Positions 28,031-61,544 of a stretch of DNA of 64,000 bases are shown here, in pieces. The stretch's first letter is position 1; every line of letters starts with the position of its first letter. The stretch spans positions 36,905,554 to 36,969,553 of the forward strand of contig OX485803.1 in NCBI GenBank assembly GCA_950295325.1. The letters are read 5' to 3'. The notes below the pieces were generated by a model. That model was not told where the DNA came from. It searched no databases and worked only from the letters and a program-made list of their open reading frames with translations. The DNA comes from Polytrichum commune. Taxonomy: Eukaryota > Streptophyta > Polytrichopsida > Polytrichales > Polytrichaceae. The translations under genes and the position numbers were made by a program.

Positions 28031-29408
28031 CTGGCGCAAAAAAGGAAACAAAACAAAACCCAAGGGGAGGGGGGGAGGGGGGAGCATGTGAAAATCGATA
28101 TACATTTGAGGCATAATATATCACACACAATGGCACACCATGTAGTATCTCAAATGAGTTTATTATATTTTGCGTGAGCGTACAACTCTCTGTACATATA
28201 GTCCTTCGGATCCATGTATCTTTCGCCTATCGGATTACAACTAAGGAACCGGGGCACGGGTAGTCCGCTCCCCACGAGCGTTTGAATGTACTTAAGTAGG
28301 TCTAACAAAAAGCGGTCTCGGACCTTCTCGACCGTCCACGTGGGGCAAACGATGAAGTTGGAGGTCGGGTTCAAAATGTTTTTGGAAGCGCTGTCGTCCA
28401 CCATCAACGTGTTGTCACGGGTGGGGCGAACGTCGTAGGGACAGCCGACCATGGTCGGACGCTGGTCCCATACAACTGGCTTCAAGACCTTAAGAAATTG
28501 GTTTACGGCGGGGTTGTTGGGCTTCTTCACAACCCTGCCCTCGGGGGTGTACAATGTTTTACAAGAATCCTGTCCTAAGACCAAGCACAGGGGTTGGAGT
28601 CCCTTGAAGATGAACTCCACGACGGCCTGGGTATTCTCGGACTTCATGGAGCTCCAAATGATCACCCACCATTTGGATAGGGCGACCTGTAGGAAGCGCC
28701 GAAGCCACGGGCGGAGGTACACTAGCTTGCTTTTGATGTACGCGGGGGGTCCATCGTAGTTGGCGTCCTCGGGCTTGCAGAAAGGCACCGTTGGGACCCT
28801 CGGACAATGCACGCACTGGACAAGGACCCCGTTGAGGTCTAGCACCAGGAACCGGGTCTTGGGAGGCGAAGGTGGCGAGGGCAAAATCGGGGGGACCACC
28901 GCGCTGTCCTCCACACTCCTCGGAGAGGATCGGTGGGGAGCCGCGACGCTATGCTCCGAACCCTGCGGCGACAAGCGAGAGAAGGCGACGAGGACTATGT
29001 TATGCTATGTCCATCTCAAGCAGAACGGAAATTTTGTGCAAACACAAGAAGAATTGGACCATTGGTGGCAACAAAAACATACAAGGGAACAACATACATT
29101 GGGACACGGATGCAAACATATGGGCGCCAAAAATAATAATTTTATTTTTACAAATCTCTATGTACAATTTGATTCGGGGGGGGGGGGGCGCGGTGAACGA
29201 GGGCATTTACACTATCCTAATTCTACATCTACAAAATTGGTTGCGCGCCGCCAAGGTCGAGCGTAGTCGAATGCAGGTCAGACGAAGGGGATCGCGGGGG
29301 GGCACGTTGGGGGGAGGGGGAGCAAGTGTAGACCAGGGGGGGCAGGGGGTGTGCATTTCCTCCTAGCAAGGGGGACACGACCACGCCAACAAGACAGTGA
29401 CCCAGGAA

Positions 29409-29430
29409 GTTTGGGTCGGTCGACCCAAAC
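29409..29430. repeat. Element A palindrome in gene 1 intron 3
   Basis: One 22-bp palindrome lies just downstream of the exon 3 donor. Two more occur inside coding exon 3, at 29731-29752 (imperfect) and 29800-29821. Element B has its own palindrome at the equivalent intron and exon places. Confidence 0.9.
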
Positions 29431-31013
29431 TGGGAGGGCTCAGTGTATTACCTCGCCCTGGTCATGTCTCGACGATATGGAAGCCTCCACCGTCCCCGCT
29501 GCCCCGCCTCTCTCGCCACCGCCTTCTCCGACGACGTCAGGAACCTTCTCCTGCAAACGATCGGCATCAGGCCCTTGTCCTAAACCAATCTCCGCATGTG
29601 CATCATGCATGGGTTCATCGATTTGGTTAGGAGTAGAGGTATCACCAGGCCCTTGCAGACCTTCAACATCTAGCATGGCCGTGTCTAGTTGACACCCATG
29701 TTGGTCAAGGGAGGACTGCGCTGCAACGGGGTTTGGGTCGCCTGACCCAAACTGTCCTGCATCTGGAGAGGGCCCTTCGGACACTACAGTGGATGGTGGG
29801 TTTGGGTCGGTCGACCCAAACATCCTGGGGTCGTCCGATTGGTGGGGTGGTGCCATGACTATGGGGGGCCGAAGTGGTGGAGGGCCCAAAGGGGAGGAGG
29901 CTCCAGAGACGCGCCAGATGTTGGGGTCATCCACTTGCTGGACCGGCGCGTACGGAACTTGGTGGGGCCGCATCAAGTGCTGGAAGCTGAAAGACGATTG
30001 CGGCACAGGCTGCTGAGGGATGCTCTGCGGAGGGAAGCCGGGGGGCAAGTGCGGGAAGGAACTGGAGGGAGCCACCACCAAACCTTGCGCCCACATTCCT
30101 TGTATCACTTGTGATATCAAGTCGGCGTGGGACGGAGGTTGGGCCATCGCCCTTTGACGCTCCTGCTCCAACAGGAGAGCCCTCAGCTCTGCGACCTCGT
30201 TCCGCATTGAGGGTTCTTCCGCGGCAGCCTTCTGCAGGCGGACTCGCTGCTCCTCGTCCCTCCTCATCTTCTCGTTCGCCTCCTCCACAGTCAGGACCTT
30301 GGGCTTCACCCTAACCATGCCAGCGAACGCTGTCGGGGACGGGGGATCTGATCTTAGCCGTTTGGCGAGCTCAATGTCATCGTCGTCCTCGCTACTTATG
30401 GCAATGGTCTCCTCCACAGAGTAGTCGCCATACAACTTCTTCCCCTTTAACTTCCTCCTCTCCCTGAACGTCGCGGTGGCGTCCCTGGAGTACATGTCCC
30501 GTGCATCGTCCACAGTCAGGACGGGCACGAGCTTACTCTGCGGGGTTGCCGCCCACATCGCCTTCTTCCGTTGAGGGGCTTCGGATTGTTGCGTGAAGCC
30601 CGTTGCCCCTTCCTCGACGTCGCCTTCCTTCTCCGCCTCCTCGTGTTCCTCTTCTTCCTCCTCCTCCTCCTCAACCTCGCCACCTTCTGTGCGGGACGGA
30701 TTGCCCGGATGCAACCCGACTAGAGGTTCGGGAACTTGGGTCGTGGCCCTCATGGCCATTTCCTCCGGGTTGATGCGCCTCACCCTATTAAGAGGGTTTT
30801 CGCCACCCTGAACAACCTCGTCGACGTAGCTACCCGGGATCCAATCGAGGATGTCCATCTTCTTCGCCAGCAATTTCTGCACCCTGTAAAATGGCAGATC
30901 GCCATCCTCTATGTAGGAGTATATATTCAGCCCCGACATCTACACAATCCAAGTTATAGGGAAATTAGAATTTGTCGAGGCAATCACATAAACAAGACTA
31001 AGTACAATGTGTA

Positions 31014-31071
31014 GTTTGGGTCGATCGACCCAAACCTGCAAAGAGCCTAGTTTGGGTCGGTCGACCCAAAC
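31014..31071. repeat. Two element A palindromes in gene 1 intron 2
   Basis: Copies at 31014-31035 (perfect, centre AT) and 31050-31071 (centre GT) lie in a 160-bp intron. Confidence 0.93.
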
Positions 31072-32521
31072 TGCTTACGAGCTATAGAAAGTCACTTACC
31101 ATAGCAGCATAGACAGGTTTTGAGCCTCCGAAGACATTGAAGATGCAGTCCCCTCTCCTTGTCAGCGTCCTCATCATTCTCATGTAAAATTCCATCCGCA
31201 GCTCATCTGCAGGATAGTTCGCATATTTAGCCTCGTCGTAGAGGCACTTGTTCGCACCCAACCCTTCTGGAACTTGGAAGAGTTTGTCCATCCGGGATAT
31301 AGGGTGGTTTGGCACCTTCAGCAACTCCGCTTTGTACACGAAGTACAAACACAAGACGTTGACGAACTTGGTCTTCTTGTCCTTCAACGTCGTGTAAGCC
31401 CCCTCCGCCGGTGCGGCGATGTAGTGAGACTTGGGCACTGCATACTCCGGCTGCAGTTTTCGGACAAGCTCGTACACCTGCTCTGCCCTTCTATCCTCGA
31501 CTATCCAAAGCCAGATATCTACCTCCCTGAACTTAGGGCTTGCATAATCGACGAACTTAGTTAAGAAGGGGTCGTAGAAGAGGGTGCTTATCGTGCCCTC
31601 AAATGAGCTTCCAGGAATATTTCTAAAATCAATCATCCCAAAAGGAAAGCGGTCCCTTGCTTTCGTCCTTATCGCCATTCTGGCGTCTTGACTTGGCCAG
31701 CCCTGAATTTTCAAAGGCTCGAAGGTGACAAGGTTGAAGTAAGCGTCCCCTTCAAACTGGACAATCTTCTTCTCCTTGATGAAGTTCGAGAACGCACACG
31801 CTGTGTGATCCGGAAGCGCCCGGTTCTTCCCACCCTTCACCATCTTGGCCCGCAAGAAGTCGTCCCCCGCTTCCCTTATTAGAGCCACCATGGAGGCACT
31901 GGTGAACTTATATTCATCTTTGAATGCTCTCCAGTTAGCCCCATGAACCTCGCCGTCCACGACAATATTCCTCTCTAGCACCAATTTATGCAGCTCCTGC
32001 ACGATAGTCGTCTTCTTTTTCCTGTTCTCCGTCCATTCCTTCATGGTGTAGCATGAAGGAACGAAGGATTTGGGCTTTACGAAGACAATCTTCGGGTGCA
32101 CCCAACACCTCTTGGCCGTGGGTGCCACGTGCAGAATGTGCGATGCCGCCTTCTCCACCTCCGTCTCTGACAGCCCTTGAAGAGTTCTAAAGAACTCTCT
32201 CACGAGAGGCTTCATCTGCTTGAAGCACGAGGTTTGGCTGAAGAAAATGCCAGTGTCGGGGTCGATCAAATCCCCCGTTTCGTGCTTTTCAAACACGGTT
32301 TTCCACTTCCTCCAAACTGAGTCCGATGCTGTAATCAAGTAAATCTCCCCCTTGAGGTCGCTGTATTTCTTCTGCTTGTGGCTCGAATTATCAATGGAGG
32401 AGAATTTGTTGATCATTTGGTATTTGAAATCCTACACGTGAACAAAACATAACATTTGAATGCGTGTTAGTTAAGTACATGTGATTTCCAAACCATATCA
32501 TGACCAACATCTACAACAAGA

Positions 32522-32641
32522 GTTTGGGTCGGTCGACCCAAACTGAAAAAAAACACAAGACTGCAACAGTTGTTTGGGTCGATCGACCCAAACTAAAAAA
32601 ACACAAGACTGCACCAGGAGTTTGGGTCGGTCGACCCAAAC
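32522..32641. repeat. Three element A palindromes in gene 1 intron 1
   Basis: Copies lie at 32522-32543, 32572-32593 and 32620-32641, separated by A-rich spacers with ACACAAGACTGCA. A further copy lies upstream of the coding start at 34003-34024. Confidence 0.93.
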
Positions 32642-34262
32642 AATACTCACCTCCCACTTGGGATTCTTGTCCTTCGCATTCTCCCTCTTCTTGGGAGGCC
32701 TACCATAGAACTCCCACACCTCCCGCGAGGCCATGATATTCCTTATCCAGGAAGTTTGGTAGGCCCTCTTCTTGTTTCCCATATTGAAGTACCGGGAGAT
32801 GTCGCTGAGCTTGGTCTCGTCGTCAAACCACACCACCAGTGCCTTTCAAACCTTCAGCTTTTCCTTCTGATTGTTGGGATCGTCCCACTCATTCATGAGT
32901 TGGATTTTCTTGGATGCCTCCACGCTGTGTTGGCCGTCTATCAGCCAAAAATCGCCCTTCTGAATTGTTGGCCACATTTCAGGTGTAGGCATTTTCTTGA
33001 GACCCTGTGGCATCACTACAATCGTTTGGCTGTCGTCTTTAAATTGCTCGCAAACGATCTGCGCGATTATCCAGTCAACGTAGGCGTCCTCCTTTGCCCG
33101 GACACACTTCTCCGGTGGCGCTAGATGGCACTGGCTGATGTTCACGTCGAACTTGAAATCCCTGCCCATGAAAAAACAGTGGGAGCATTTCGTCGTGAAA
33201 TTGTTCACGATTTTCTGCAGCTCCCCTGCATCCACCTCTTCGCCGGGCTTCGGCATGCGCAACTCCGGTGAGACTGGCTCGTCAGTCATCACAGATGACT
33301 CTCTCGCCCTCTTGGATGGAGTTGTTTGACGGCTCCCAGAAGGTGTAGGGGTCTCACTATTCGTAGGTGTTTGGGAGGGAGTGGTCCTACGAGAGTCAGC
33401 CGGTACTGGTAGCGGCATCCTCACCGATTGAGGTCTTGACAACCCTGCTCCTTCCTCTGTGGGAGCTTTCCGCCTCACAGGTTGCTGTGATTTGGTTTTG
33501 CTTTGCAGGCCCCTGTTCAGCACGGTTATTGCATGTTTTAGTTTTGTGAACCGGCTTGAGACCTTGGTATTCGATGTACTCCCATCGATAAATATTGTCT
33601 CCGGCTTGATAACTTCCGGTTCAACACAGGACTCTCTTGCATAGAGTGCGTCGAAAGGCTCGGAGAACTGGTGCATGAACATATGCGCGTTCTGCACAGC
33701 CGAGTTCTCGAGGATGACGTCGGTATAGTCTCCAAGAGACTGTACCGATGCGACCTCCCATCCCGTAAGAGTCGCCCAGGTGTGTTTCTCCACGGTTCCC
33801 ACCTTGACAACAAAAATCATTTTGTATGTTGAGGTTTTGACTACTTGAATAGACCAAGCGAGGACAAGCCCGTCCTTAGGGGAATAGGAGTCATCCTGCG
33901 GGGTTTCGTGCTCCTGCCACAACATGTCCGGCGCAGGCATGAACCACCTTTCGCCGGGTCTTTTCTTTGGAGCCATCTGTAAGAAAATAATGCGCAAAGT
34001 TAGTTTCGGTCGTTCGACCCAAACATCTACGACATGAATAGGTTTAGGTGGATTGTGTATTTATATATTTCAGCATCATTTGTAATGATAATAAGAATGT
34101 TGTGATTATTGGGTGGATTTGCATTTTATATTGTTTGTGACATGCAGGATTCCTTGATACTTTTCCTTGATACATTCCTTGATTATTATTTTGGGTTGAT
34201 GTGAATTTTATATTGATGCAAAAATCATGGATTTCTTTATGAGTTTATAATTAGAAGACTTA

Positions 34263-34437
34263 GTTTGGGTCGTTCGACCCAAACATGATGCTTTGTGTTA
34301 TATTTTGGTCGTTCGGCCCAAACATGATGCTTTGTTTTGTGTTTGGGTTGAGCGACCCAAGCAAGGGGCTGTGTTTGGGGCTATGTTTGGGTCGGTTGAC
34401 CCAAACAAGAGGCTGTGTTTGGGTCGTCTCCCCAAAC
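34263..34437. repeat. Palindrome array upstream of element A gene 1
   Basis: Five variants start at 34263, 34302, 34341, 34385 and 34417; the first three are spaced exactly 39 bp. Several have one or two mismatches in the core. The array sits in the presumed promoter or 5' leader of the minus-strand gene 1. Confidence 0.88.
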
Positions 34438-34689
34438 AATATTATTTTAATATATTTTTTAAACTTGGCATCTAGCATATACAATGCTTATGCATTGTGT
34501 ATGCTACAAAACCGTGAATATACAAACACATATTGGTTAAAATAAAACACAATACCTTTCAAAGATGTTGTGCAGACAATTTGGAGTAGAGCAGGTTGTT
34601 CTTCCAATAATTCTCAATATCAAACAAACTGTGAGAAAGTTCAATGAGAAACTTTCAAACAAGTATCAACTCTCTCAAATAGCTCTTGG

Positions 34690-34930
34690 ATCTCTCAACC
34701 AACTCCTGAATCTCACACAGAACTACTGAATCTCTCAAAAGACTTCGAAATGTCTAAACCAACTCCTGAATCTCACACACAACTACTAAACCTCTCAAAA
34801 GCCTTCGAAATGTCCAAACCAACTCCTGAATCTCACACACAACTACTAAACCTCTCAAAAGACTTCGAAATGTCTAAACCCACTCCTGAATCCCTCACAA
34901 AACTATTGAATCTCTCAAACGACTTCGAAA
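34690..34930 (+). repeat. 60-bp tandem repeat, about four copies
   Basis: The unit AACTCCTGAATCTCACACA...CTCTCAAAAGACTTCGAAAT repeats with a 60-bp period. Since 60 is divisible by 3 it opens a frame of 20-residue repeats at 34,750-35,121. I do not regard that as a gene, as it lacks splice context and has no counterpart in element B. Confidence 0.85.
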
Positions 34931-36113
34931 ACTCTCAAACAACTCTTGATACTCTTAAAGAACTCTTGAATTTCACAAGCACTCCTAAAACTTCCAGTAC
35001 AAACACCTGGACCTCCCAAACCGAAGCTTTATCTACTACCGAATGTTCTACTAACTTCCTTCAGCACTTTCCAATACTCTTCAACACTCTTTTGCTAACT
35101 TCCTTCACTCTCACGCTCTAAAACCTTCCTCCGTATGTTTCTGTTTCTTTCAAAACTCTTCCTAACTTCTAAGATTGCACAAGGGCTATTCTATTGAAGA
35201 GCAAAAGAAAGGAGGGAAAAGAAGATGCAGAAGAAAGCAATGAACACGGGAGAATGAAGGGTTAACCTACACCAAGCCTGATTCGCCGCGGCGCTTCAGG
35301 AGAGGCGGCGCTTCCAAGCGAGGCGCGGAGAGAGAGAGAGAGAGAAAGAAAGAAATGAGAAATGCGACGGTTGGGGTTTTGTTTACCTCGGGCATTGGCC
35401 CCCAACCGCATGAATAGGGTGCCCACAGGATTAGGGCACCCACGGAAACAGGGTTATAGGGAACCCTAAAACCTAAATCATAACGCTTGACTCTAAACCC
35501 TTAGCGGGCCTACCTCTTTAAGAGTACATAGGCTATTTGCCTCATAGCATAGGTTGCATTCTACAATATCAACTTTTTGTAAGTTGAAAACCTTTTGAGT
35601 TTGTAAGTTCCTCGCCAATTGCCTCAAAACTAAATTTTAGTAGGTTAAAATCCTTCATATCTTTTAATGTTGTAGGTTTTAAAATCAAAATTTGAGTACT
35701 AAGTGGGATCCTTCAAGTTGGCAGGAATCGAACCTGGCTCAGCCTTTCACCACGTTTGAAGGCCAAGGATTAACCAAGTCTTTTTTAAAGAGTTGATTAT
35801 AAGTTTTGAAAGCCTAGGTTGCTAAAATTCAAATGAGTTTAAGGGTGAAAGTTCTCACCATGTTCTCATTCAACCTCTACTCTTCCTGCAAGATATAGCC
35901 TAAAGATATGTACTTAGGCCAACTAATTTCCCAATTTGAAGAAGGATGAATGGCTAAAATCCTTTCTTTTAAAAAAAATTTAGGCAAAATTTCCTAAATG
36001 TTTTTATCACATAGGTTGATATCCTATGTTTTTAAATTGTCCATAGGCTCTTTGTCCTACACTTTCAAAATTTTATAGGCTAAGTCACTAATTTTGTAGG
36101 CTGCATTTGTTTT

Positions 36114-36372
36114 AATCGGTATATTCGTTAATTTGGGATTTTTTCGGCATTTTGAGAAAGTTACAAATATAAGAACATGGATAAAATCGCACGTACATTG
36201 GAGAATGTTGTAAGATGCAAATACTTTGAAGCGGGTGTTCATATCAAGAACGCAATTAAGATCTCATATGAAGATGGTTTAGGTAGGACGACCCAAACAT
36301 TACACTATGTTGTTGTGGTCCATATATTAATTTGAGAGAAGAGAAAATCTCAAATTAGCGAATTTTAGGGTT
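36114..36372. mobile_element. Nested MITE-like deletion derivative of an element A/B relative
   Basis: The left part (TATATTCGTTAATTTGGGAT ... TTTGAAGCGGGTGTTCAT) matches the element A left end at 26,678-26,810. The right part (GGTCCATATATTAATTTGAG ... AATCTCAAATTAGCGAAT) matches the element A right end at 44,288-44,335. So both termini are joined over about 260 bp with no genes. It holds one diverged palindrome (GTTTAGGTAGGACGACCCAA). The ends are degenerate, so exact borders and TSD are uncertain. Confidence 0.75.
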
Positions 36373-36884
36373 TAGGTTCTTTTGGACCCTGCTCTAAACC
36401 CTTATTAGTTTTTTCAAAAGAACTATGGAGTACCCTAAGGTGCTACATAAAATGTGTTATTCTACAAAACTAACCATTTATATAGCCAGCGCATTCTTAC
36501 AACAAAACTTTATGCTAAACTAATACTTATCCCCTACTTACATGACACCATACCCTAAATTTTCCAAAATCATTGAAGGCATTGGTTTCTCTTTTGTTTG
36601 AGCATGTTAGAAAATTTAAACCATATAATTGCGTTATATTTAACGATGTAACCATTCACATTTAGTCCTTACCAATGATGCCAACAATTCACACGATATT
36701 GAATGAAAAAAAAAAAGATTACCCACACCCCCCAACATGTGGAACAATTTAGAATAATTGAGTGTGGAGCCTAATAAATGAATACCTTCCCCAACTGCAT
36801 TTTGCAAGGGTTTTGAAATGCACGATCCTTATTTGAAAATGCGAACATGCTCAAGTTTTAAGTACATCCCTTAGATCGTGACTT

Positions 36885-37705
36885 TCACGAATCACATAGT
36901 CGCCAATAAATCATGGTTCATGATTTATTTAATATATAGATTGTGATATAAGAGTAAATGGGATAAGCACAACATCAAATGAAGCCATTCAAGCAATCAT
37001 GTTGTTATTCCCTGTTCCTTCCATGTATATTAGATGATGGCGCAAGATAAAATAGATGTTGTTTGTATATGGGGGCATCAGTGAACCACAACTACATTTG
37101 GTGTTTAGGGTTTAGGGTTTAGGAGATAGGAGATAGGAGATAGGGTTATAACATATTAATCTATCCAATGTCAATGTATAACATTGTCTTACTCGTGAGA
37201 AGAGTCTTATAGGAAGGTTATAGTGAAGACGATGTTGATTATGTTAATTTGTTATTCGAGACGTTTAAACGCGATATATTGATTGGTCGTGTGTTTATTC
37301 AAATAACATGAAATATTGTGGATGTTAATAGGGGCTAGGGGTCCAACTTTGGATGTTTCGCTCACTTTAGGGAATCACATATTAGTCGCTAATAAACCAT
37401 CGTTCATGATGTATTTAATATATGGAATGTCATGTAAAAGTAAATCGGAGAAGCACAACATCATGTTGTTATTCATTGTTCTCTCCACGTGTATTAGATA
37501 ATGGAGGAAGATATAACAGATATTGTTTGCATAATATGAAGAAGAGTCTAATCGGAAGGTCATAGTAAATACAATCTTGATCATGTTAATATGTTATATG
37601 GGACGTTTAAACATGATATCCTAATTGGTTTTGTATTTAGTCAATGCGTATTTCATGTTGTGGATGTTATAAGGGTTTAGGGTCCAATCTTGGATGTTTT
37701 GCTCT
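36885..37705. repeat. Diverged direct duplication in the element A interior
   Basis: Segments near 36,890-37,366 and 37,371-37,705 share, in order, GAATCACATA, TAAATC-GGAGAAGCACAACATC, GACGTTTAAAC and TTGGATGTTT(C/T)GCTC. The second copy is shorter by about 140 bp. No coding frame is present. Confidence 0.75.
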
Positions 37706-38306: not shown

Positions 38307-38313
38307 TATAAAG
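38307..38313 (+). promoter_or_regulatory. Possible TATA box for element A gene 2
   Basis: TATAAAG is followed about 25-30 bp later by a pyrimidine-rich stretch (CCTTTTTTTCTCTTC), a common plant initiator context. It lies 300 bp before the palindrome array and 1.5 kb before the coding start. Confidence 0.35.
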
Positions 38314-49880: not shown

Positions 49881-50028
49881 TCATTACTAGCACAAATAGG
49901 TTTAGGTTACTGGACGTGAGTCAGAAAATTTTCATGACAATACAGTCTCGTTGGTATACTATACATGGCAAGTGGTCATGATGTCAGCTCAGGTGCAATA
50001 CCGAACAATGGAACAAAAAGGTGCAAAA

Positions 50029-50432: not shown

Positions 50433-53400
50433 CTCCGTGATTTGCGGCGCCATAATAGGACCATTTCACCAGGAACGATACTTGCCATAAACAAAAATCA
50501 ATCACTATAAGGATCCAGACAGTGCAATCCACATAAAATTGGCTCCACTAATGGGTTTATGGCTTGGAATTTAGTGTTTAGGGTATAAAAGGTCCATTGC
50601 AATAGGATCTGTACCTGCACGAAATAAACATCCAGAACACTACAAGGGTCCAAGCAGCGCAACCCACATCTGAGATGCAAAAAGAGTCCCTTGGTGGAGG
50701 GGTGTCCCCTTAAGTACTGATCGTTTCCCTTGGATCCGTTTTCCAACATAGGATACTAGCCACCATCTACGTCCTATAAATAAAAACCTAACATTACTAC
50801 ATTCCGTGTGCCAGCCTTACAATGGAATGTGTATTCATAGTGGACAACATGCATAGACGATGAGTCCACATAATGACAAAGAAAAAGGCATCTACGTATT
50901 TATGGTGGACAACAAAGAAAATAGGCTAATAATATATGAGCATTGAACATTGTTGAGGGGTGGTTTATAATATTGAAGTACCTAATATTGAGAGGTCATT
51001 GTAGAACTAGGAGACAGAAAATTATAGTGTCGTGTGAAACATCAACCACAACAACAACAATAGTACATGGAGTATAAAAATACGTGTCATTCAAAATTAA
51101 ACTAGCATCTATTTTATTGTTTTGCATACGATGTAATGATATTCACTCCAATATCATGTTATCTCCTCTCATCTAGCATTTAAACTAGTAATTACATTTG
51201 CCACCACCCTACCATCCAACCCGTTTAATTTACCCACTTTTACACACCTATACATAATTATACTAATACGTACACAAACTTTGAGCGCCTAGATGCCATG
51301 AAAATAGCACATCTATTGTCATAGGCACTATGGGTTGCTTTAAAATCAATATTCTCAATTTCCTCTCTTAACTTTAGGGCCCCCTTCAATACATCAACAT
51401 TTATTTCAAAAAAAATAATACTAGCATTCTTAATGTACTATACGTGAGACAAAAAACAATTTTTAGTACCCCATGTACATTATCTACAATATTGACTCAA
51501 ACAATAGCAGTTGTTGTTCTAAGTAACATTATGAGCCCAACAAACCATAATGGAGAGAAGGGGAGGGTTGGGTATCCAAATATTATAAAGGCAAGCAATT
51601 TTAAGTTGGTGACAGAAGGGGGATACTCTCATTAGTTCATACGTGGTACCCTAAATCCTAAACCCTAAACCCTAAACCCTAAACACTATACCCTATACCC
51701 TATACCCTATACCCTATACCCTATACCCTATACCCTATAACCGCCCACCCCTGAACAAACACAACGACATACGGTACGCATGGTTAACTGAATAACTCCC
51801 AATACATGTGTAGCCTTAAGTGGAAGTAATTCAAAACTATATGACTACCTTTAAATTTTGTAAAATAAAACCATAAACATTTCAAATGTGAAGCAAATTT
51901 AGGGGTAACCTTACCTTTCATTTTTTTAAATCTTTCTTTGGCTTTAAACCATTTGCTTTAAACATATACTTTTGATGAAAGGTTTTGAAGATCGTATATT
52001 GGTATTCTATAATCGAGTCCTAAACACAACTCACCACCGAAAGAAAACTCCAAATATAAACAAGTTTGCTACTACTTATAAGCGATAATACAAGCTGAGG
52101 CCTATGTGTGGAAGGATTGGATGGATCCGAAAGGTTGTTTAATGTACAAGAGGGATGTACATTCAACACATACCCATGCATTTTGTTTTAATACAAGCTT
52201 AGACCTATGTGTGGAGGGATTGAATTAATCCGTAATGTTGTTTAAGGTATTACAAGCATATGAATTCTCCCCATATCTCGATGTTTCGGTTTTGTTAATT
52301 GCGTTTCACAACTTATTGCGATAATTGAGGGATTCACAAGTATTTCTTGGCAAAGTTTCATGAGAATTTGTGGCCAATTGGTATATTGCCCCAATTGCAT
52401 TTGAATCCCACCTTTGAGAAGAAAAAGAATTCTTATACTGAAGTTAATCAACAAGACATCCTTTTATTGAATATTATTACTATTCTCGAAATATAGAGTC
52501 CCCTCCATAGCTCGGGGGGTGCACTGTACTAAACATGTACGAGTTATACGTGAGTGCACAGGAGGGGTATTGATTTGGACCTTGCCGTATTGCATATACA
52601 TATGGTATACATGTTATAATTTATAGTTACGTACATATATGGAAGGCCTTTAAAAAGTATAGAATAATTGTACTTGTATGGTATTGTTACTATACTATAT
52701 ATCATAAGTGTTCATATTGGATAAGTTTTCATAAGGTTTGGTTTGTTGGGAGAGTTTATAGGATGCGGAGGAAGTTTGGTAATCGTTGGGTGGAGTATAG
52801 GGATCCATTTGACTTGATGGACCGTCCATCAAACGTGGAGATTGGTTTATGTTGGTATCAAAAGGGGCTAACAACAAGTGGACATATGATCTTATTGATC
52901 ATTCCATGGTAGACTTAGAGACAATAATTGCATTTGTATACTTATGTTAATGACTCTCGGGGGGGGGGGGGGTAGTCATTGGTTGGAGTAGCAATATACG
53001 TGCAAACAAATGATAGGGTATTTTAAAAACATGGGGGCAAAAAATTATAAATGGACTTAAGAGTAATATAGGGTATCAAAAATGGCACTGGACATCTTTA
53101 AAGTAGTATAGGGTATGGAATAATTGGTAATTTGGAATTATAAGTAATGCAAGCCATTTTTCTATTAACCCAAAGTAGAAATTTATATAATGATAGCATG
53201 TGAAAAAAATAAGAGAATTGAAAGTAATACCCCCCTATATCCTTATTTTTTTAACACACTGCCCCCCCGAGTAATGACTAATATATATGAATGGATGTTT
53301 TTTTGTGTATACATATTGTCGCTTGTATATTTATTGTTGCAATTGTATGTGTATTACTTCATTTCACAAAAAATCACTTGTATATATTAGGGGGTTTTTA

Positions 53401-53895
53401 GAGTATGCAGTGAACGCACGTGATTCTAGGTTTTAATGAAAGGTGCTCCCCCACTCTCCATAGAGGCCACACTAGAAATTGTAGTTAGTTTCTCTCATTG
53501 TTTGGAGTTCCAAAATGATATTATTATTATTATTGATGTCATTTAATTGTTGACAATGACATAATAATTTACTCAACCTCACACCCTAATATAATTTCCT
53601 AAAATAATGAATACTTTCTAGAGCTCGTATGAATATTTCACTCATTATCAAAAGTGAAGAGAAGAGGCAACGAGATGGCTCATTTTATATTTAGAGTGAC
53701 ATTTAGTGTGACTTTTAACTTGCCTTAGCATAAACATAAGATGTTATTATGACATAATATGATAATAAAATCACCAAACTAAGTATAAATTAAACCCCTA
53801 TTTCAATACCAAATATAGACCAGTAGGGTGATGCCACGTAAGGGTATAGGCCGGCGATTGGGCGCGACGTTTGGGGTAGGGACACGTGGAGGCAC
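50433..53895. other. Non-coding interior of element B
   Basis: AT-rich sequence with no recognisable gene. It contains an interstitial telomere-like tract (51,652-51,739), a poly-G run near 52,960 and short direct repeats (CAAGCT-AGACCTATGTGTGGA near 52,095 and 52,195). Short frames show no domain. Confidence 0.45.
51652..51739. repeat. Interstitial telomere-like repeat passing into CCCTATA units
   Basis: About four CCCTAAA units (the plant telomere repeat) are followed by about nine TACCCTA units. Similar TTTAGGG clusters occur at 17,905, 37,100 and 37,860. Confidence 0.9.
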
Positions 53896-53899
53896 GCCA

Positions 53900-54390
53900 T
53901 TGTTTTAGGGTTCCAAGTACTCCAGCACCCTTTCGCCCTCGCTCTTCGTGCTTTTCCTTCCTTCTCTATCATCTCTTCCTTCCGTTCCTTCTACTGTTGC
54001 TCTTGCTTCTCTTGCTTTAGGGTTATAGGGTTTCAAAGTACACCAGCTCCCTTTTGCCCTCCTCTTCGTGCTTTTGCTTCCTTCTCTTGCAACTCTTGTT
54101 TATCTTGTTTATCTTGTTTATCTTGCTCATCTGCTCTTGCTTCTCTTGCTCATTTGCTCATCTTCTCTTGCTCATCTGCTCTTGCTCATCTTCTCTTGCT
54201 CATCTTCTCTTCTTCTCTTGCTCATCTTCTCTTGCTCAACTTCTCATCTTCTCTTGCTCATCTGCTCATCTTCTTTTGCTTCTTTTGCTTCTCTTCACTT
54301 TCTTCTCTTGTTTCTCTTGCTTCTTACCCTTATCTTCACTTTCTTCTCTCTCTTCTCTTGCTTCCCTTGCTGGTCTTGCTTCTCTTTCCT
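53900..54390 (+). repeat. Pyrimidine-rich CTTGCTCATCTTCT repeats
   Basis: Two copies of an AGGGTT...CCCTTTCGCCCTC...CTTCGTGCTTTT block (about 53,908 and 54,020) lead into a long low-complexity tract of CTTCTCTTGCTCATCTG units. The strand bias and position upstream of gene 1 fit a promoter or 5' leader. A palindrome remnant CTGACGCGCGTCAG follows at 54,424. Frames of Leu/Ser/Cys repeats are artefacts. Confidence 0.7.
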
Positions 54391-54829
54391 CACAATGCAA
54401 AACTCATTCTTATTGGTCAATTGCTGACGCGCGTCAGAGCTAGAGTAAGTTCTCCTTGTTTGCTGCTCATTTGCTTATTAGCTCATTAGCTCATTAGTAA
54501 GTTTTGCTTGCTGCTTGCTTGCTTGCTGCTCATTAGATCATTAGGATGCTCATTGTTGCTTGCTACTGCTCATTAGGTTGTTTTCAGTTGTTGATCTCAG
54601 TTGTTGCAAGGGTAATTAGTGTTTCAGATGTTGCTCATTAGGGTTTCAGTTGTAGCTTCACCATGTAGTTCATTATATTTTTTGCATACAAATCAATAGT
54701 TTCCTTTCACTTGTGTTGCATGAATCTGATTTATGAGCAACTTTTTTGAGTAGTTCTCAATGTTGAATCATGCATGTGCACATTGAATTACTAGAGGTTT
54801 CTGACCTCAATTTTATTGTTCATTTGCAG

Positions 54830-54888
54830 TTGGTATTAGCTGCAGCAGGAGCAGCTAGTTGTGGTTTAGGAGCAAACACTCTAGAAAG
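54830..54888 (+). other. Possible 5' untranslated exon of element B gene 1
   Basis: An acceptor-like CATTTGCAG and donor-like AAAG|GTAAGT bracket 59 bp. Because the gene 1 start codon directly follows an acceptor at 56,042, at least one upstream untranslated exon must exist; this is one candidate and a second lies at about 55,101-55,171. Confidence 0.3.
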
Positions 54889-55251
54889 GTAAGTTTTTTA
54901 GAACATTGCAATTGCATTTTGTATGATTGCAATTTTGGGTTGTTGTGGTTTAGGGCTTAAGGTTAGCATGACAGAATGTGAGATTCCAGTTTCAAGGAAT
55001 TCTGAATTTGTTTAGTACTTTGTCTATGGCTACATTCTAAGAATCATTTAGTTATGGACATGTCAGTGTTCTGAAAGTGCCTTATGTTGTCAATCTGCAG
55101 TGCAGTGTTTGCTATTGCAGTGAAGTAAGATTGCATTCTTATTTGGAGGGCAAAACCATATTGGACGACAAGGTAAAGTCCCGAAAAACACGGAGCATTA
55201 ATGAAAACATTGGAATACGCAAACATTACAATAGCCTTTATAATCCTCAAA

Positions 55252-55680
55252 GTTTACGGACGCGCGTCCGTAAACTTTGTGGATCTTTGTGTAGGTGAGA
55301 GACAAGCCTCTCAAACAACATATTACGCAAACGAAGCCAAATATTGTAATATTAGGCATATTAAAATAGCCTTTATAATACTCAAAGTTTACGGACGCGC
55401 GTCTGTAAACTTTGTGGATCTTTGGGTAGGTGAGAGACAAGCCTCTCAAACAACATATTACGCAAACGAAGCCAAATATTGTAATATTAGGCATATTAAA
55501 ATAGCCTTTATAATACTCAAAGTTTACGGACGCGCGTCCGTAAACTTTGTGGATCTTTGGGTAGGTGAGAGACAAGCCTCTCAAACAATATATTACGCAA
55601 ACGAAGCCAAATATTGTAATATTAGGCATATTAAAATAGCCTTTATAATACTCAAAGTTTACGGACGCGCGTCCGTAAAC
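55252..55680. repeat. Exact 135-bp palindrome array upstream of element B gene 1
   Basis: Palindromes start at 55252, 55387, 55522 and 55657, with a spacing of exactly 135 bp. Because 135 is divisible by 3 the array opens long frames on both strands. Two more variants (about 55,837 and 55,965) lead up to the gene. Confidence 0.95.
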
Positions 55681-56042
55681 TTTGTGGATCTTTGTGTAGG
55701 TGAGAAACAAGACTCTCAAAAATATATGTAGGTGAGAAACAAGACTCTCAAAAAATGTAGGTGTGAAACAAGACTCTCAAAAAAATATTAACCGTAACTT
55801 GAATACATTGATATTTACCACCATACTATCTTTGCGAAGTTTACGGACGCGCGTCCGTAACTTATAGAGATATTTGAGTATATATAATATACGCGTTATG
55901 CGTATTTGGAAGAAATGTATCTTTTCATTTGGATCCAAAAATATAATTGAGACAATTTGGAAAACTTTACGAACGCACGTTCGTAAAGTATGATCTATAT
56001 CTTTTGCCAAGAATTCTAACTTATCTATCTTATCATTTGCAG

Positions 56043-57332
56043 ATGGCATCTAAAAAGAGACATGCAATTGAGATGTTCGCAGAAGCTCTCATTCCTCCGC
56101 TACCAGAAGCCATCAAAGACATAAGTCCCAACGACCATTACAAGCCACAAGATGAAATTGTGGATAATTGGACAGTATTGGTAGAAAAGGACGAGAAAGA
56201 AATATTTGTGCTTAGATTTGCATATCAAATGAAGACGGACATAGATGAAGCTGAGAAGTGGATAAAGCTTAAATCGTGGACAGTAGAGTGTGCAGTGGCA
56301 CAAAGGGATTATGTAGTAATAGACCTTGAGAAGAAAGAAGATCGGGTCACTTTCATTTTGCACGAATCCTACCACCCCTTCAACAAAAATGAGTGTGAGA
56401 ATGCTAGTACAGATGCGGCTTGCTTCAATCTCCAGACGGAGTTCCAAGACTATGCATGCAATGCACCTTGGACGGGTAAGCGGCTTGGACGACTCTTGAA
56501 CAATGTAACAAGAGTAAATGGAGCCTTGCTAGAGGCCAGAAAGGGGAAAGATAAGAAAAAACAAGTCGTTCCTGAACGACCCAAGCGTGTGCCTAAACCA
56601 GTGCCGGAATCCTCAAGGCCCTCGCAGAGTGGTGCATCAAGAGGGAGCAGACAAGCGAGTAAACGCTCTCACTGGCAGATGGACTCTGGACTAACAGAGG
56701 GTCCGGATGTCAGCTCTACACTGACTGTCGCTCCACTCCTCAAAAAGGGTCAACGCCCTGACGCCGAACTCTCAACAAAAATATTCCAAGAGTTCGATGA
56801 GAAGACGAAGGGATGCTGGCCCCTTGGCATGTATTTTACTTTCGAAGTAGACGTCTACAAATGCCACAAGGGCACCGAAAGTATGAATACCAGAGCAAAA
56901 GAAGAAAGCGGTGTATGGTGGCAAATGAACAACATCATGAACAACCCCAAGTTTGATATGCAAACCATTTGTGTGACACCAAAGGATCCTATCGTTGAAG
57001 TCAACGAAAAGAATTGGCCGATTCTCAAGAATGGAGAGTTCTACATTGTCGACGGCCAACATAGTGTAATGGCTGCAAAAGCTCTCCTTGAAGACGACGA
57101 GTGGAAAAGCCCATTAAAGGAGACAATCCGATATTGGAAGGCATTCGTCGTGCATTCCAAGGACTCGAACCAACTCATAGCAATATCTGCCTTCATGAAC
57201 CAGGGGAATAAAGTGAGGCAGTTCGAGGCTTCATGGGCAGCCAACATCGTGGCTGGGAGGACCTTGTGGGTGGAGCACGAATGTCCCCCAAAAGAAAGAG
57301 ATAATGCTGTCGTGAAGAACCCAAAATGGCAG
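56043..57332 (+). CDS. Element B gene 1 exon 1: ParB-like DGQHS domain
   Basis: 430 codons from ATG directly after the acceptor TTTGCAG, ending at CAG|GTATGT in phase 0. Residues about 40-115 form a mixed alpha/beta module conserved with element A. A basic Ser/Pro linker follows (about 180-240), then the key region near residues 318-345: ICVTPKDPIVEVNEKNWPIL and GEFYIVDGQHSVMAAKALLE. The [LIV]-[VI]-D-G-Q-H-x(3)-A-A pattern is that of ParB/sulfiredoxin-fold proteins, including DNA-binding ParB and DGQHR-type nucleases. This is motif-level inference. The C-terminal part (ASWAANIVAGRTLW ... NPKWQ) aligns with element A across its nonsense codon. It begins a four-exon protein of about 1,597 aa. 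Confidence 0.78.
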
Positions 57333-57349
57333 GTATGTTACTCAAATAG

Positions 57350-57373
57350 ATTTACGGACGTGCGTCCGTAAAT
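57350..57373. repeat. Element B palindrome in gene 1 intron 1
   Basis: One 24-bp palindrome with a GTGC centre, in the same intron that holds three element A palindromes in A. Confidence 0.92.
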
Positions 57374-57464
57374 GTGGCCCTTCTCCTCCCACTGATTCAA
57401 ATATTTGAATTTAATTTGTACTGAATTCAATGTTCTGATTTCTTGCAATTCGCGCCTCTTGCAG

Positions 57465-58784
57465 ACATTCAGCAATGCCATATTGACAAAGTTCTCGAGT
57501 ATAGACATGAAGACAAGCGGCATGAAAACAGTGCATGAATTAAAAGGCGAACTCAAGCTCATCACTGCAACAGAAGAGACGTGGTCAATATGGTTGCGAC
57601 TTTTCGATGCCCACAACAACGGCGACCTTGTCAATCCATATACGGAGAACACCTACAAGAGCGACTCAAAAGTTAAGGTACCACCAATCCTACGAGAGTT
57701 CTTTCGTCCCCTCCAAGGATTGATGGACTCGGAGCTGTACAAGGCAGCAGAACACATTCTTCTAGAAACTCCTAGAAGAACTCTGCCCTATCCCAAAATC
57801 TTTCTGAAGCGGCCGAAGCACATGAAGCCATCCACGTACCACATTAAGGAATGGTGCGATTACAGAAAGAAGAAGACCATGGCTGTAAGGGAGATTAGCA
57901 AATTGCTACCCACCCACAACCTCATTAATAGTGATGGTGAGATCGTGTGGGAGAATTGGAGGAAGCTGAAGGGTGAATACCACATCAATGGCGTCTCAAT
58001 GCGAGCTTTGATAAGAGGGGCATCATCCTTCCTTGCCCAACGATCCAGAAGGAACAAAAAGAAGGGATCCATCGACGAGAGGGAGGCAGGGTTGTATGTT
58101 CACTTTCTCGATAGGAAAAAGAACGCGAAATTTGGAGGGTTTGCAAGATTCTGCACGGTCGCAAAGGGCATGAAGTTCGGCGCATGGGACACCCATGCTT
58201 CAAGAGCCTCTGTGAGAGATGACCCCAGGGGTTGCCCTTTCGCCATTTTTGATTTTCGTGCAATTCCCGGAGCATGGAAGCAAGACGTTGCGGGAGCACC
58301 CTTCTACGAGCCCTTCTTAAAAGCCTTCAAGAGCTATCGCTCGCCTGCCCTCTTCGAGCCTCATGTGTGGTTATGGATTGTAGAGCAAGAGAGGTCCACA
58401 TCCATTGTCCATCTGTACACATCAACGATGGACCTCGAATACGATATGTACCACAACACCTACATCCCAGCGAAGACAGAAGGGATCACTTTCATTCAAG
58501 AGGCAAGGGGGGTGAAGCAAGTGGGAGCTGTGCAGCTTTATTTCTTAACACGCAAGTCTTCCCCAACTGGGCGATTGCCCATTAAACCACACGAGGTGTT
58601 CAGGAAAGTCTATTCGTTGCCGCCACCACATCCCAAGGAGCTTGTTGAGGAGACAATGCATGCAATCTATCCGGCGTTCGAGCTCCGGATGGACTTTTAT
58701 ATAGGGGTCTTGAAGGCTTTAACTGTCATGAGTGAGACAGTTTACAACGTCTTCGGAGGCACGAAGTTTATGTATGCAGCACTG
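57465..58784 (+). CDS. Element B gene 1 exon 2: methyltransferase-like domain
   Basis: 440 codons, phase 0 at both ends (CTTGCAG|ACA ... CTG|GTGAGT). The first half is conserved with element A (ELKLITATEETWSIWLRLFD, LREFFRPLQGLMDSELYKAA) but unknown to me. The second half has FAIFDFRAIPG, then FEPHVWLWIVEQERSTSIVH, then LRMDFYIGVLKALTV and ETVYNVFGGTKFMYAAL. That order resembles permuted beta-class DNA methyltransferases, in which a D-P-P-Y loop and a strand-helix precede the F-x-G-x-G cofactor loop near the C-terminus; ParB-methylase fusions are common in bacteria and phages. The DPPY equivalent is not conserved (DFRAIPG here), so it may be a degenerate enzyme or a different fold. Treat as a hypothesis. 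Confidence 0.65.
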
Positions 58785-58830
58785 GTGAGTATTTGTTTGT
58801 CTTTCAACCCACCTATCTTTTGCATAGTTA

Positions 58831-58946
58831 TTTTACGGACGCGCGTCCGTAAAAACCCAGTATCAGGTGCATGTGAATTTTACGACCGTGCGTCCGTAAA
58901 ATTGTCCAACTTTTGAGTGGTGGTTTTACGGACGCGCGTCCGTATA
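58831..58946. repeat. Three element B palindromes in gene 1 intron 2
   Basis: Copies at 58831-58854 (perfect), 58877-58904 (one core change) and 58923-58946. Element A intron 2 has two copies of its own palindrome. Confidence 0.93.
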
Positions 58947-59020
58947 ACGTGTTGACATCTAGCCTCATTTATATGCAATCACCACTATTGTTCTTATCTA
59001 ATTTTCTTGTTATGGTCCAG

Positions 59021-60436
59021 ATGCTTGGCTTGCAGGTGAATTCTTTTGTGCAGGATTCCGACTACGATGACGCCCATACTCACAGGGTAATGGCCTCCAA
59101 AATGGATATCCAGGACATCATGGACGTCCTTACACCCCATCCTGTTGTGCCTCTTTCTTCTAGAGAAGAGGCAATGCCCGGAATGGAGACAGACCCTGAA
59201 GAGGACCAAGATCCCAGTTCCCCAAGAGCGCAACCCTCCACACAGGAGCCTTTACACGGCCTTGTTCGCGACCCAATTAATCCAAGTGTTTTCCTGCTGG
59301 GAACAGACGACACGGATGCGCAGGAGGCACGCGTGAACTTCACTCCGATAAGGGTCCCTCATACCCCTGTTCTCTCACCTTTTGGGACTCCCACCTCTCG
59401 AGTTGGATTTCCCTCAACTGCGGGTCCATCTCGTGCTCCAGGAGTTATGGCCGAGAAGGATGTGGACCTTGCGGCAGAAGGCGGATGCACCGCTTCATCT
59501 GGAGGGGGATCTCAACATTCAGATCTACCCCCTATGGAGGGGAGGGATGTGCTGGAGTTGATATTGAGGCCTGATATCTCTCTATATCGTGAGAGTCGAC
59601 GAAAGAGGAACAAGACGCCATACAACGAATACCCTGAAGGCGCGGTCTTGGAGCTCTCCGATGAAGACGAGGATGAGATTAGGATTCACAATGCCATCTC
59701 TGCCTTGCCTACAGAACCTGGCAAGGTGAAGAAAGAGCCGATGTCAGTGTCCGAATTGGACGAGAAGATGGAGAGGCGAATGAAGGAAGAGCTTGACCAA
59801 CGGCTTCGAGAAGCTAACGAGGAGCACGCCAAAAAGATGGCCGCCATCCAAGCTGAGATGGAGCAAGCTAGGTTGGAGTCTGCTCGAAGGCACGCCGATC
59901 TCATGGCCCAAAATCAACAGTTCTTGGCCCAAAGTCAACAATTTATGAGCCTGATGCAGAGCTTGCAGGCAAGACCCCCTGTAGTCTATACAGCTCCCGA
60001 TGCCGTCATGTCTATGCCCCCCACTCTCATGCGGCCTCCGTCTAGTAGCCATGCGGTGTATATACCCGAGCATGCTTATCCAGCCCCCGCGTTGATTGTC
60101 CCGCCCTCTCCCCTTGTTGTCGCCACTCCAGAGGAGCCCTCCTCTCATCCTACAGGAGTGGAGGAGATACCGGCACGTGACATGGCGGGTGCCGCCGAGA
60201 CAGATGTCAATGAAGGCAATGCCCCCATCGGCGATGAAGATGTACATATGCGGGGCAGCCAAGACTCCACAGATGAGGATCAGCCTTACGTGGATACTCA
60301 AGGGTCGCAAGCGGCTGGAGACACCTTGTTGGTGGTCGAAGATCTGGACAATTTTGCGGACGCGCGTCCGGATCCTGTGCCCATGACGGGGCCAGGTGAG
60401 GGAGGCACTGCTGGCGCGGACCTCGCCCTTGAAGAG
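59021..60436 (+). CDS. Element B gene 1 exon 3: disordered and coiled-coil region
   Basis: 472 codons, phase 0 at both ends (GTCCAG|ATG ... GAG|GTAATC). It starts MLGLQVNSFVQDSDYDD and KMDIQDIMD, conserved with element A (MSGLNIYSYIEDGD, KMDILDWIP). Pro/Ser-rich sequence follows, then ESRRKRNKTPYNEYPEGAVL and ELSDEDEDEI: a basic, nuclear-import-like stretch and a hydrophobic-acidic SUMO-interaction-like motif. Next comes a charged coiled coil (EELDQRLREANEEHAKKMAA) and Gln-rich repeats, then a Pro-rich acidic tail. An element B palindrome is embedded in frame at 60353-60372 (read as FADARPD), the same protein region where element A carries its own two palindromes. Confidence 0.75.
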
Positions 60437-60462
60437 GTAATCAACCTTTGAGCATGCCTCCC

Positions 60463-60486
60463 ACGTTACGGACGCGCGTCCAAAAC
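60463..60486. repeat. Element B palindrome in gene 1 intron 3
   Basis: GTTACGGACGCGCGTCC is followed by a slightly altered right arm, about 27 bp past the exon 3 donor. Element A has its copy at the matching place. Confidence 0.85.
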
Positions 60487-60776
60487 TTCCTTGTCTGCCT
60501 CCTTCGTGGCGTGTGTATATTATCGAGTTCAATCCTCGACTTCGCCCGGCGGGTGGATACAATTTTGTTAGCATAGATTCCATTAACTTCAACAGATATT
60601 TTTTGCGACAATGTATATTATTCACCAAATGTATATCACCAATTACATTAATACCAATTTTTCAACTGGATGGTTCGGATTATTTTTGGCCTTATAATTT
60701 GTGTTGAGTTTATCCATGCTTGTCAATTGGTTTTCTTGAGTAGTACCATTTACCTAGATAGAATGTTCCATCACAG

Positions 60777-61544
60777 GGTCCGTCGGAGATATGTCGCAAC
60801 CCCGCGGGAAAACCAAGCGCGCCCATGATGAAACCGTTCATAATATTTGACCTCAATGGGGTGCTTTGTCAATCCAAACATATCTCGAATAGTGCGTCCA
60901 AGGGGCCCTTCCGTAGTCCACAAGACATGGATTACGGCGGACATTTCGATACTCTCATAAATAAGAAGGTTGTACGTGCCCGCCCCGGTTTGAGGAGCTT
61001 CCTTCGTGAGGTCCTTGGCTTCGCCCATGTCATCATCTGGAGCTCTATGCTCATGGACAACACGAAGGCCATCGTCGGTTTCCTTTTCCGAGAACTCGCA
61101 ATGCCATGCTTGCTTCTCGGTCAAGAACACTGCGATGACCTCTATGACCGTAGTGGCAATATTGTACCCAAGGTTGGAGGAGGTCGTGGGCCTCAATTCT
61201 TAAAGGTCCTGAGGAAGAACCTCTGGGTGGGCGTCCCTATGTTGGAGGGGGTTCCCCACGGTTGTTGGCCCACCCCGGATAACACACTCCTCATTGACGA
61301 CAGCCCGGCAAAGAGTATTCTCAATCCCCCGGGCAATTGCATATTCCCGGATCCTTGGGAAAGCGATAGAAATGACAACTTTCTAGAGAGTGAACTAGGA
61401 CCCTACATTAGGAGGCTTGCCTATCACCCCGGAAGTGTCCCGGATTTTGTGCTCTCCAACCCAATTGGCAATAGGCCTCTAGGCCCACAAGATGAGGAAT
61501 TTAGGAGATTGTACGGCTACGCTAGACTCAATAAATTAATATGA
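60777..61544 (+). CDS. Element B gene 1 exon 4: FCP1-like HAD domain
   Basis: 255 codons plus stop; starts at ATCACAG|GGT in phase 0. The HAD fold motifs are in order: FIIFDLNGVL (motif I), VIIWSSM (motif II Ser), a Lys in FLKVLRKNLW (motif III) and LLIDDSPAKSILNPPGN (motif IV with the DD pair). FCP1/NIF-type phosphatases remove phosphate from the RNA polymerase II C-terminal domain and normally have DxDx(T/V) in motif I. Here the second Asp is Asn (DLNG) in both A and B, as in a class of plant FCP1-like proteins, so catalysis may be weak or absent. The likely source is a captured host gene. Both elements end in the same sequence, Asn-Lys-Leu-Ile-stop. Confidence 0.85.
   Translation, partial: GPSEICRNPAGKPSAPMMKPFIIFDLNGVLCQSKHISNSASKGPFRSPQDMDYGGHFDTLINKKVVRARPGLRSFLREVLGFAHVIIWSSMLMDNTKAIVGFLFRELAMPCLLLGQEHCDDLYDRSGNIVPKVGGGRGPQFLKVLRKNLWVGVPMLEGVPHGCWPTPDNTLLIDDSPAKSILNPPGNCIFPDPWESDRNDNFLESELGPYIRRLAYHPGSVPDFVLSNPIGNRPLGPQDEEFRRLYGYARLNKLI

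Follow-up and report, generated by a model that had tools for sequence, protein, structure and literature searches.

Two related DNA transposons, here named elements A and B, carry element-specific families of long palindromes at matching places in a stretch of 64,000 nucleotides from Polytrichum commune (hereafter the window; NCBI GenBank assembly GCA_950295325.1, contig OX485803.1, positions 36,905,554 to 36,969,553 of the forward strand). A and B belong to one transposon family with terminal inverted repeats (TIRs), stand in opposite orientations in the window, and each have two divergent genes, gene 2, which encodes a DUF7869 protein, and gene 1, whose product is weakly ParB-like and has a NIF/FCP1-type domain. 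We established directly the palindromic sites, their clade-specific spelling, their placement and a constraint on their sequence. With moderate confidence, we favour the explanation that each clade of DUF7869 elements has its own predicted binding site of 22 bp (two half-sites of 10 bp around a centre of 2 bp, 10+2+10), which would be read by an element-encoded dimer, with the gene 1 product as the best candidate and a logic like that of the VANC proteins of Arabidopsis VANDAL elements.

The 22-bp palindrome with a 2-bp centre that a preliminary description had reported for element A is amply borne out, with 31 sites at ≤3 mismatches in the window against a mean of 0.01 in 100 shuffles. For element B the same description gave a 24-bp palindrome (15 sites, 0 in shuffles); this form holds in the arrays, but the outer bases vary in the dispersed copies, so that the core common to the A and B families is 10+2+10. 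The two families had been called different in sequence, which is right in that their spellings are distinct, but they are related, with 6/10 half-site bases the same in dyad register (chance ~0.02). Each family is indeed absent from the other element and from a CACTA element in the window: the A motif at ≤4 mismatches occurs 34 times in element A and 0 times elsewhere (37 and 1 at ≤5, the sole match outside A being the intron-3 site of B at 60465), and the B motif at ≤7 mismatches occurs 21 times in element B and 0 times elsewhere. At ≤3 mismatches, no A- or B-type site lies in 9000-14000, the CACTA region, or in 1-26671. The palindromes are CpG-rich and stand in noncoding DNA with a CpG observed/expected ratio of 0.58-0.62; CpG richness as an argument for methylation was dropped, as it says little by itself.

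The tie between clade and spelling extends to 20 sampled DUF7869 loci of the same genome, in which each site was counted under its best motif at ≤3 mismatches. The clade motifs, all of the 10+2+10 form, are GTTTGGGTCGnnCGACCCAAAC in A, TTTACGGACG.. in B, TTTACGAACG.. in C, CCCACGGGTG.. in D, CCCACGGGCG.. in D' and GGGTGAGGCA.. in E; the half-sites of B and C differ by one base, as do those of D and D', and those of A and B by 4/10. The motif of the own clade was in the majority in 19/20 loci and tied in one, and the counts are nearly block-diagonal by clade. Thus the ten A-clade loci (element A of the window and nine others) had A sites only, three C loci had C sites only (9, 13 and 11), two D loci had D sites only (7 and 6), the D' locus had 8 D' sites and 1 D site, and the E locus had 23 E sites. 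Element B of the window had 18 sites, 14 of which fit B best and 4 C best, and L063 had 2 B sites and 1 C site. The loci were chosen by gene 2 identity (L039, L040), by gene 1 identity (L062-L064), as TIR-paired elements on C1 outside the top gene 2 matches (L043-L049), or from a DUF7869 family search (L071-L074). The motif is linked to the gene 1 side in A, B and C and to the gene 2 side in A, B, D, D' and E.

Genome-wide, exact sites number 9231 for A, 713 for B, 2909 for C and 853 for D/D', with 0 for the reversed control of each. The expectation that a motif would be confined to one element subfamily held only in part. Among the first 100 exact A sites listed, which all lie on C1 below 2.16 Mb and were tallied by hand, 77 are in three A-clade DUF7869 elements (616088-626110, 1180627-1190831 and 2115505-2125786), 22 lie within 16 kb of a gene start (two in all) of M, a different type of element, and 1 is unassigned. 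In listings that cover part of C1, 49/50 B sites are within 20 kb of a listed B-clade gene, and 48/50 sites of the M palindrome are within 20 kb of an M gene start; sites were assigned to M by their distance from a gene start.

The proposal that the palindromes are placed alike in A and B, in arrays upstream of both genes and as copies in introns 1-3, the leader and coding exon 3 of gene 1, stands with the gene models (Table 1), and placement is kept under change of motif beyond these two elements, among A, B and C on the gene 1 side and among A, B, D, D' and E on the gene 2 side. In the predicted models, gene 1 has four exons with GT-AG phase-0 introns at the same places in A and B. Its first palindrome lies 5-23 nt past the donor of intron 1 and 19-47 nt past that of intron 2 in 12/12 loci from three clades, and 21-28 nt past the donor of intron 3 in the 8/12 loci in which this donor was located. 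Under uniform placement, sites would come within 50 nt of every one of the three donors with a chance of 2e-5 in A (5 sites) and in B (4 sites), the 50-nt limit having been set after the data were seen. The intron-3 site is the clearest case of an apparent motif change in place: A and B have in common GTAAT..CCTCCCA, the palindrome and then ..AACTTCCT, with GTTTGGGTCGACCGACCCAAAC in A and GTTACGGACGCGCGTCCAAAAC in B, and with the palindrome removed the flanks of three A-clade loci align with those of two B-clade loci (z 3.3-5.3, six comparisons).

Constraint evidently acts on the palindrome sequence itself, because the A motif outlasts saturated synonymous divergence and the coding copies keep synonymous codons. 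The A motif is unchanged between gene 1 lineages whose synonymous divergence (dS) in exon 2 is ~1.7-2.1 or beyond measurement, values that are rough at that depth, and between A-clade loci little of intron 1 beyond the palindromes can still be aligned (z 2.3-4.7, compared with 26 for L042, a close relative). Dispersed copies are alike inside the palindrome only, with 0.94 versus 0.44 in the flanks for gene 1 of A and 0.85 versus 0.40-0.48 for the dispersed copies of B. Codons of unchanged residues in the two coding palindromes are identical in 11/12 cases between A and L041, 11/12 between A and L043 and 14/14 between L041 and L043, against same-codon rates of 59%, 58% and 53%, respectively, elsewhere in exon 3; the sole exception in the first two comparisons is one and the same codon of A. 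The arms are fully paired in 101/123 A-clade sites (≤4 mismatches), and the centre takes 11 dinucleotides.

In the mechanism that we propose, an element-encoded protein, most likely a dimer, would bind the inverted repeat, with the gene 1 product as the candidate reader. By binding at the arrays in front of both genes and at the sites near the start of the gene 1 introns, the protein would keep the genes of the element open or tuned, and the private spelling would limit this effect to the element's own clade. The reader, its dimeric binding and an anti-silencing or autoregulatory outcome are what we infer, anti-silencing as the purpose being an analogy with VANC. Gene 1 is preferred over gene 2 as the reader because the TIR and gene 2 are more alike between A and B (gene 2 amino-acid identity 53-76% by exon) while both the palindrome and gene 1 (25-42%) differ, and because gene 1 and its surroundings hold many of the sites. 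If true, this would be a second recognition code specific to transposable elements beside VANDAL/VANC, and the DUF7869 loci sampled here from a single genome show six spellings. Long and almost exact sites that occupy homologous positions would allow the evolution of protein-DNA specificity to be traced one site at a time, and pairing the palindromes of A, B and C with the gene 1 proteins of these clades offers a ready test of specificity change.

A reader encoded by gene 2, which would use the palindromes as internal or subterminal transposase sites, seems unlikely to us. It would account for the arrays that precede gene 2 in the five clades whose gene 2 side was retrieved (A, B, D, D' and E), for the D and E stretches in which no gene 1 homologue was detected and for the degenerate A-type copies near the ends of A. 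Yet the motif differs between A and B in spite of a common TIR, which a transposase should read, and 53-76% identity in gene 2, many palindromes are in and around gene 1, and no B-type site (≤7 mismatches) lies within 2 kb of the ends of B. We regard as distinctly unlikely that the palindromes act as RNA hairpins in transcripts, for instance beside 5' splice sites, and keep an RNA role open at lower weight because the sites in introns 1 and 2 are so close to 5' splice sites in 12/12 loci; gene 1 sites are in introns, leader or exon. A selected hairpin in the sense RNA should favour G-U wobble, and broken pairs are indeed G-U rather than A-C in the gene 2 array of E (21 versus 4) and in the gene 2 arrays of A (5 versus 2). 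Over all sites (≤4 mismatches, sense), however, wobble is not favoured, with 54 G-U, 58 A-C and 74 other broken pairs (42, 51 and 59 in unique sites), A-C is commoner than G-U in the gene 1 copies of A (11 to 7) and C (22 to 9), and a hairpin alone does not need a fixed sequence.

That a host protein reads the palindromes, with the clades adapted to different host factors, appears improbable: A-type arrays in two unrelated element types would fit such a reader, but a motif per transposon clade would need several of them, and nearly all of the B and M sites listed on C1 are no farther than 20 kb from a gene that belongs to the same element type as the site. We give still less credence to neutral spread, in which tandem duplication, gene conversion or self-templated correction would multiply and perfect palindromes that nothing reads. 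The arrays are tandem duplications that vary in copy number, and the dispersed B copies show both-arm changes in excess of shuffled expectation (9 versus 3.4, though 5/9 are at the outermost base); the dispersed copies have little in common but the palindrome, however, synonymous codons are kept at the coding copies, and 0/32 arm changes are symmetric in A copies, unlike what self-correction would leave. With this mixed outcome in B and A, symmetric both-arm changes were also given up as proof of selection.

Several results weigh against the favoured explanation, an element-encoded reader. Gene 1 is without a firm DNA-binding domain, and the ParB-like label comes from weak matches at one motif of exon 1, DGQHS (phrog_1033 of PHROGs at E 0.02 in B and 0.23 in A; Pfam GmrSD_N at E 0.14 in C); for a ParB-type domain in this exon there was no NCBIfam match and no PDB match with a profile, and structure prediction gave unusable models with a pLDDT of 32 for gene 1 exon 1 and 34 for gene 2. 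The stretches of D (9.9 kb and 7 kb), D' (7 kb) and E (7 kb) that were searched yielded no gene 1 homologue, and the plus-strand open reading frame behind a second palindrome array of the E-clade element (L074:5349-6999) has no similarity to gene 1 exon 1. Independent motif changes are few, since only A, B and C tie the motif to gene 1, and covariation cannot single out gene 1, since genes 1 and 2 are linked. In the tied locus, L062, a single B site stands beside a B/C hybrid that was counted as C, TTTACGAACGCGCGTCCGTAAA. L041 and L042 were picked from a listing of the A motif and L039 in part for having no exact B site listed in its vicinity, so that these three are not fully independent motif tests. 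Fully paired arms are fewer outside clade A, at 15/34 in B, 7/35 in C, 7/13 in D, 6/9 in D' and 3/26 in E. Finally, an A-type array stands upstream of the M gene start in 10/10 of the best start-exon loci (94-100% identical, query locus included), because of which the A code is not strictly exclusive to its own element type.

The A-type arrays in M are the most surprising single result. Elements of this type, as seen at C1:461-483 kb, have a gene with a start exon, an exon with the motif WDGNHRFLAW and a DNA-methyltransferase-like exon (L052-L061, L065-L070). The second of these exons is ParB-like by eye and matches gene 1 of B over 22 residues (E 0.004, single comparison), and the methyltransferase exon matches PHROGs at E 3.8e-6 and Pfam N6_N4_Mtase at E 0.02, below cut-off. 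M has a palindrome of its own, CCCTGTGCGTTAACGCACAGGG, with 444 exact sites, and in diverged M loci (47-73% identical) the M type only was found, with an A-type array in 0/6, although a farther array would be missed in the 1.8-1.9 kb fetched. On the simplest reading, one M sublineage gained A-type arrays, the direction of transfer being presumed, and A-type arrays in a different element type suggest capture of a rival's signal. A more general scheme of 10+2+10 palindrome addressing is conceivable but tentative: ParB-like proteins of at least two unrelated types of mobile element would each nucleate along their element at its own palindromes, the address would shift by symmetric half-site substitutions at clade splits (a single base separates B from C, and likewise D from D'), and the address of one element type would have been stolen by another, as in the M sublineage with A-type arrays. 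In L050 (2843-7548) there is also an array of ~26 copies of another 22-bp palindrome, GGTGTCTCGGTACCGAGACACC, at ~138 bp spacing.

Gene 2 is probably a transposase, and is taken as such because it is found in TIR-bounded elements. DUF7869 (E 4.1e-44 and 4.5e-40) is its sole Pfam match over cut-off, no relative was found in a viral contig collection, and a search of open-licence papers (titles and openings of abstracts) returned none on DUF7869. With the DUF7869 core of B as the query, 1458 first-look candidates were found in the genome, 146 of which were scored. The main exons of both B genes are open. The NIF domain in exon 4 of gene 1 is over the Pfam cut-off in A (E 3e-14) and in B (E 4.4e-13). 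The catalytic motif of NIF/FCP1 phosphatases is DxDx, and because this position reads DLNGV in both A and B, phosphatase activity is doubtful. Interleukin-2 matches of exon 1 (E 0.0015) were taken as chance.

Amino-acid identity was also compared between the two genes. Elements of the B clade with gene 1 at 81-84% identity have gene 2 at 94-98% (n=20), those with gene 1 at 75-76% have gene 2 at 94-96% (n=15), and one element has 97% in gene 1 and 96% in gene 2. The idea that gene 1 evolves faster than gene 2 was dropped, as its dS is also far larger and its dN/dS low. In the A clade, dS is ~1.7-2.1 or saturated between gene 1 lineages and at most 0.46 in gene 2, measured mostly in different elements, and dN/dS is 0.04-0.15 in gene 1 (diverged pairs) and 0.13-0.17 in gene 2. 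This pattern of identity and dS would be better explained if the gene 1 lineages were older and gene 2 had been exchanged.

By the features tested, the A/B family is neither VANDAL nor CACTA. VANDALs are Mutator-like elements (MULEs); no MULE-type transposase (VANA) was found, with nothing but DUF7869 above the Pfam cut-off in gene 2, and DUF1985/DUF287 had no Pfam match in the gene 1 exons of A and B at E≤1, or in exons 1-3 of B and two C exons at E≤5. VANDAL-type clustering of motifs, element-specific, noncoding and differing between relatives, was found, with the A-type arrays in M as the exception. CACTA elements have target-site duplications (TSDs) of 3 bp, and CACTA (En/Spm) features are likewise missing, with DUF7869 instead of a tnp2-type Transposase_21 and 4-bp TSDs in A and B; the CACTA protein of the window itself has Transposase_21. 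In two published accounts, VANC recognizes tandem motifs in noncoding DNA whose sequence varies from one related element to the next, the motif has nine bases, YAGTATTAY, VANC is a DUF1985/DUF287 protein, and loss of methylation was demonstrated (PMC5735166, PMC10398659). As in VANDALs, element-specific short motifs occur, often in tandem, in introns, upstream and in other noncoding regions of the A/B family, motifs differ between related elements, and relatives resemble each other more in the transposase than in the accessory protein; unlike VANDALs, the A/B family has a DUF7869 gene 2, an AACACTA TIR, a 4-bp TSD, a 22-bp inverted repeat that is also in a coding exon, and a gene 1 that is weakly ParB-like with a NIF domain. 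The A/B-family proteins are apparently unrelated to VANDAL/VANC. In titles and openings of abstracts of open-licence papers, no such system besides VANC was found.

Two further systems invite comparison. As with TnpA of En/Spm, the element encodes a second protein and also contains repeated sites, but TnpA sites are short and subterminal, unlike the long palindromes at gene starts, in introns and in an exon of the A/B family. In a comparison with bacterial ParB-parS, a possible ParB-type motif in the protein and palindromic sites at several places are points of likeness, and the 16-bp length of parS and the DGQHS reading of the gene 1 motif are points of difference. A likeness of the palindromes to parS in a shared GTTT..AAAC was rejected by eye, as the half-sites mismatch in dyad register.

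The bounds of the two elements are corrected to those in Table 1. Inverted repeats of the AACACTATATTCGTTA type stand at both ends of A and of B, the TIR starts with AACACTA and stays similar between A and B, and in both a DUF7869 protein lies within TIRs and TSDs. At ≤1 mismatch, the TIR word occurs 1193 times forward and 1237 times reverse in the genome (24 for the reversed control). The empty site of A lies inside 63240-63320 and that of B inside 26110-26200, and comparison with the filled sites gives the 4-bp TSDs.

Table 1. Coordinates of elements, genes and palindromes in the window
Feature	Coordinates	Strand	Remarks
Element A, DNA transposon	26672-44340		28-bp perfect TIRs 26672-26699 and 44313-44340; TSD TCAT (26668-26671, 44341-44344)
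Element B, inverted relative to A	45494-62843		TIRs 45494-45521 and 62816-62843, 96%; TSD ATGG (45490-45493, 62844-62847)
Gene 1 of A	28150-33976	-	predicted exons 33976-32651, 32431-31100, 30939-29452, 28962-28150; NIF domain in last exon
Gene 1 of B	56043-61544	+	predicted exons 56043-57332, 57465-58784, 59021-60436, 60777-61544; open throughout; NIF domain in last exon
Gene 2 of A	39791-43809	+	DUF7869; broken by ~0.9 kb of unrelated sequence near 42175-43083
Gene 2 of B	46151-49250	-	DUF7869; two main exons, start approximate
A-type array upstream of gene 2	38618-39619		17 copies
A-type, upstream of gene 1	34263-34406		sites 34263, 34302, 34341, 34385
A-type, gene 1 leader	34003		
A-type, gene 1 intron 1	32522-32641		3 copies
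A-type, gene 1 intron 2	31014-31071		2 copies
A-type, gene 1 intron 3	29409-29430		position homologous to 60464-60487 of B
A-type, coding exon 3	29731-29752, 29800-29821		read as FGS(G/T)DPN, same frame as B copy
A-type, imperfect (4-5 mismatches), left end of A	26835, 26924, 27024, 27151 (26835-27172), 27579		partly in tandem repeats
A-type, imperfect (4-5 mismatches), right end of A	44128		
B-type, upstream of gene 2	49388-50432		includes 95-bp tandem array 50029-50432
B-type, upstream of gene 1	55252-55862		135-bp tandem array and 55839
Gene 1 leader of B	55965-55988		spelled like motif C, TTTACGAACG..CGTTCGTAAA
B-type, gene 1 intron 1	57350-57373		
B-type, gene 1 intron 2	58831-58947		58831, 58878, 58924
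B-type, gene 1 intron 3	60464-60487		6 mismatches to 24-mer
B-type, coding exon 3	60352-60375		read as FADARPDP; 5 mismatches to 24-mer
B-like palindrome, gene 2 intron of B	47770-47791		

Gene 1 of A has one in-frame stop, at 32846-32848 in exon 1. Parts of the ~0.9-kb sequence that interrupts gene 2 of A recur in L007, L050 and L051, which makes it probable that this sequence is a repeat in its own right. A host repeat is duplicated in the window (25800-26672, 44341-45493 and 62844-63567), and because A and B are inserted in it at different points, there are natural empty sites for both. Within A, a MITE-like piece at 36115-36373 resembles both ends of the A/B transposon family and has one A-like palindrome, at 36277. 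The CACTA element (9526-13278), without A- or B-type palindromes, has coding pieces with Transposase_21, DUF4218 and DUF4216, and a PGG-domain gene also lies in the window.

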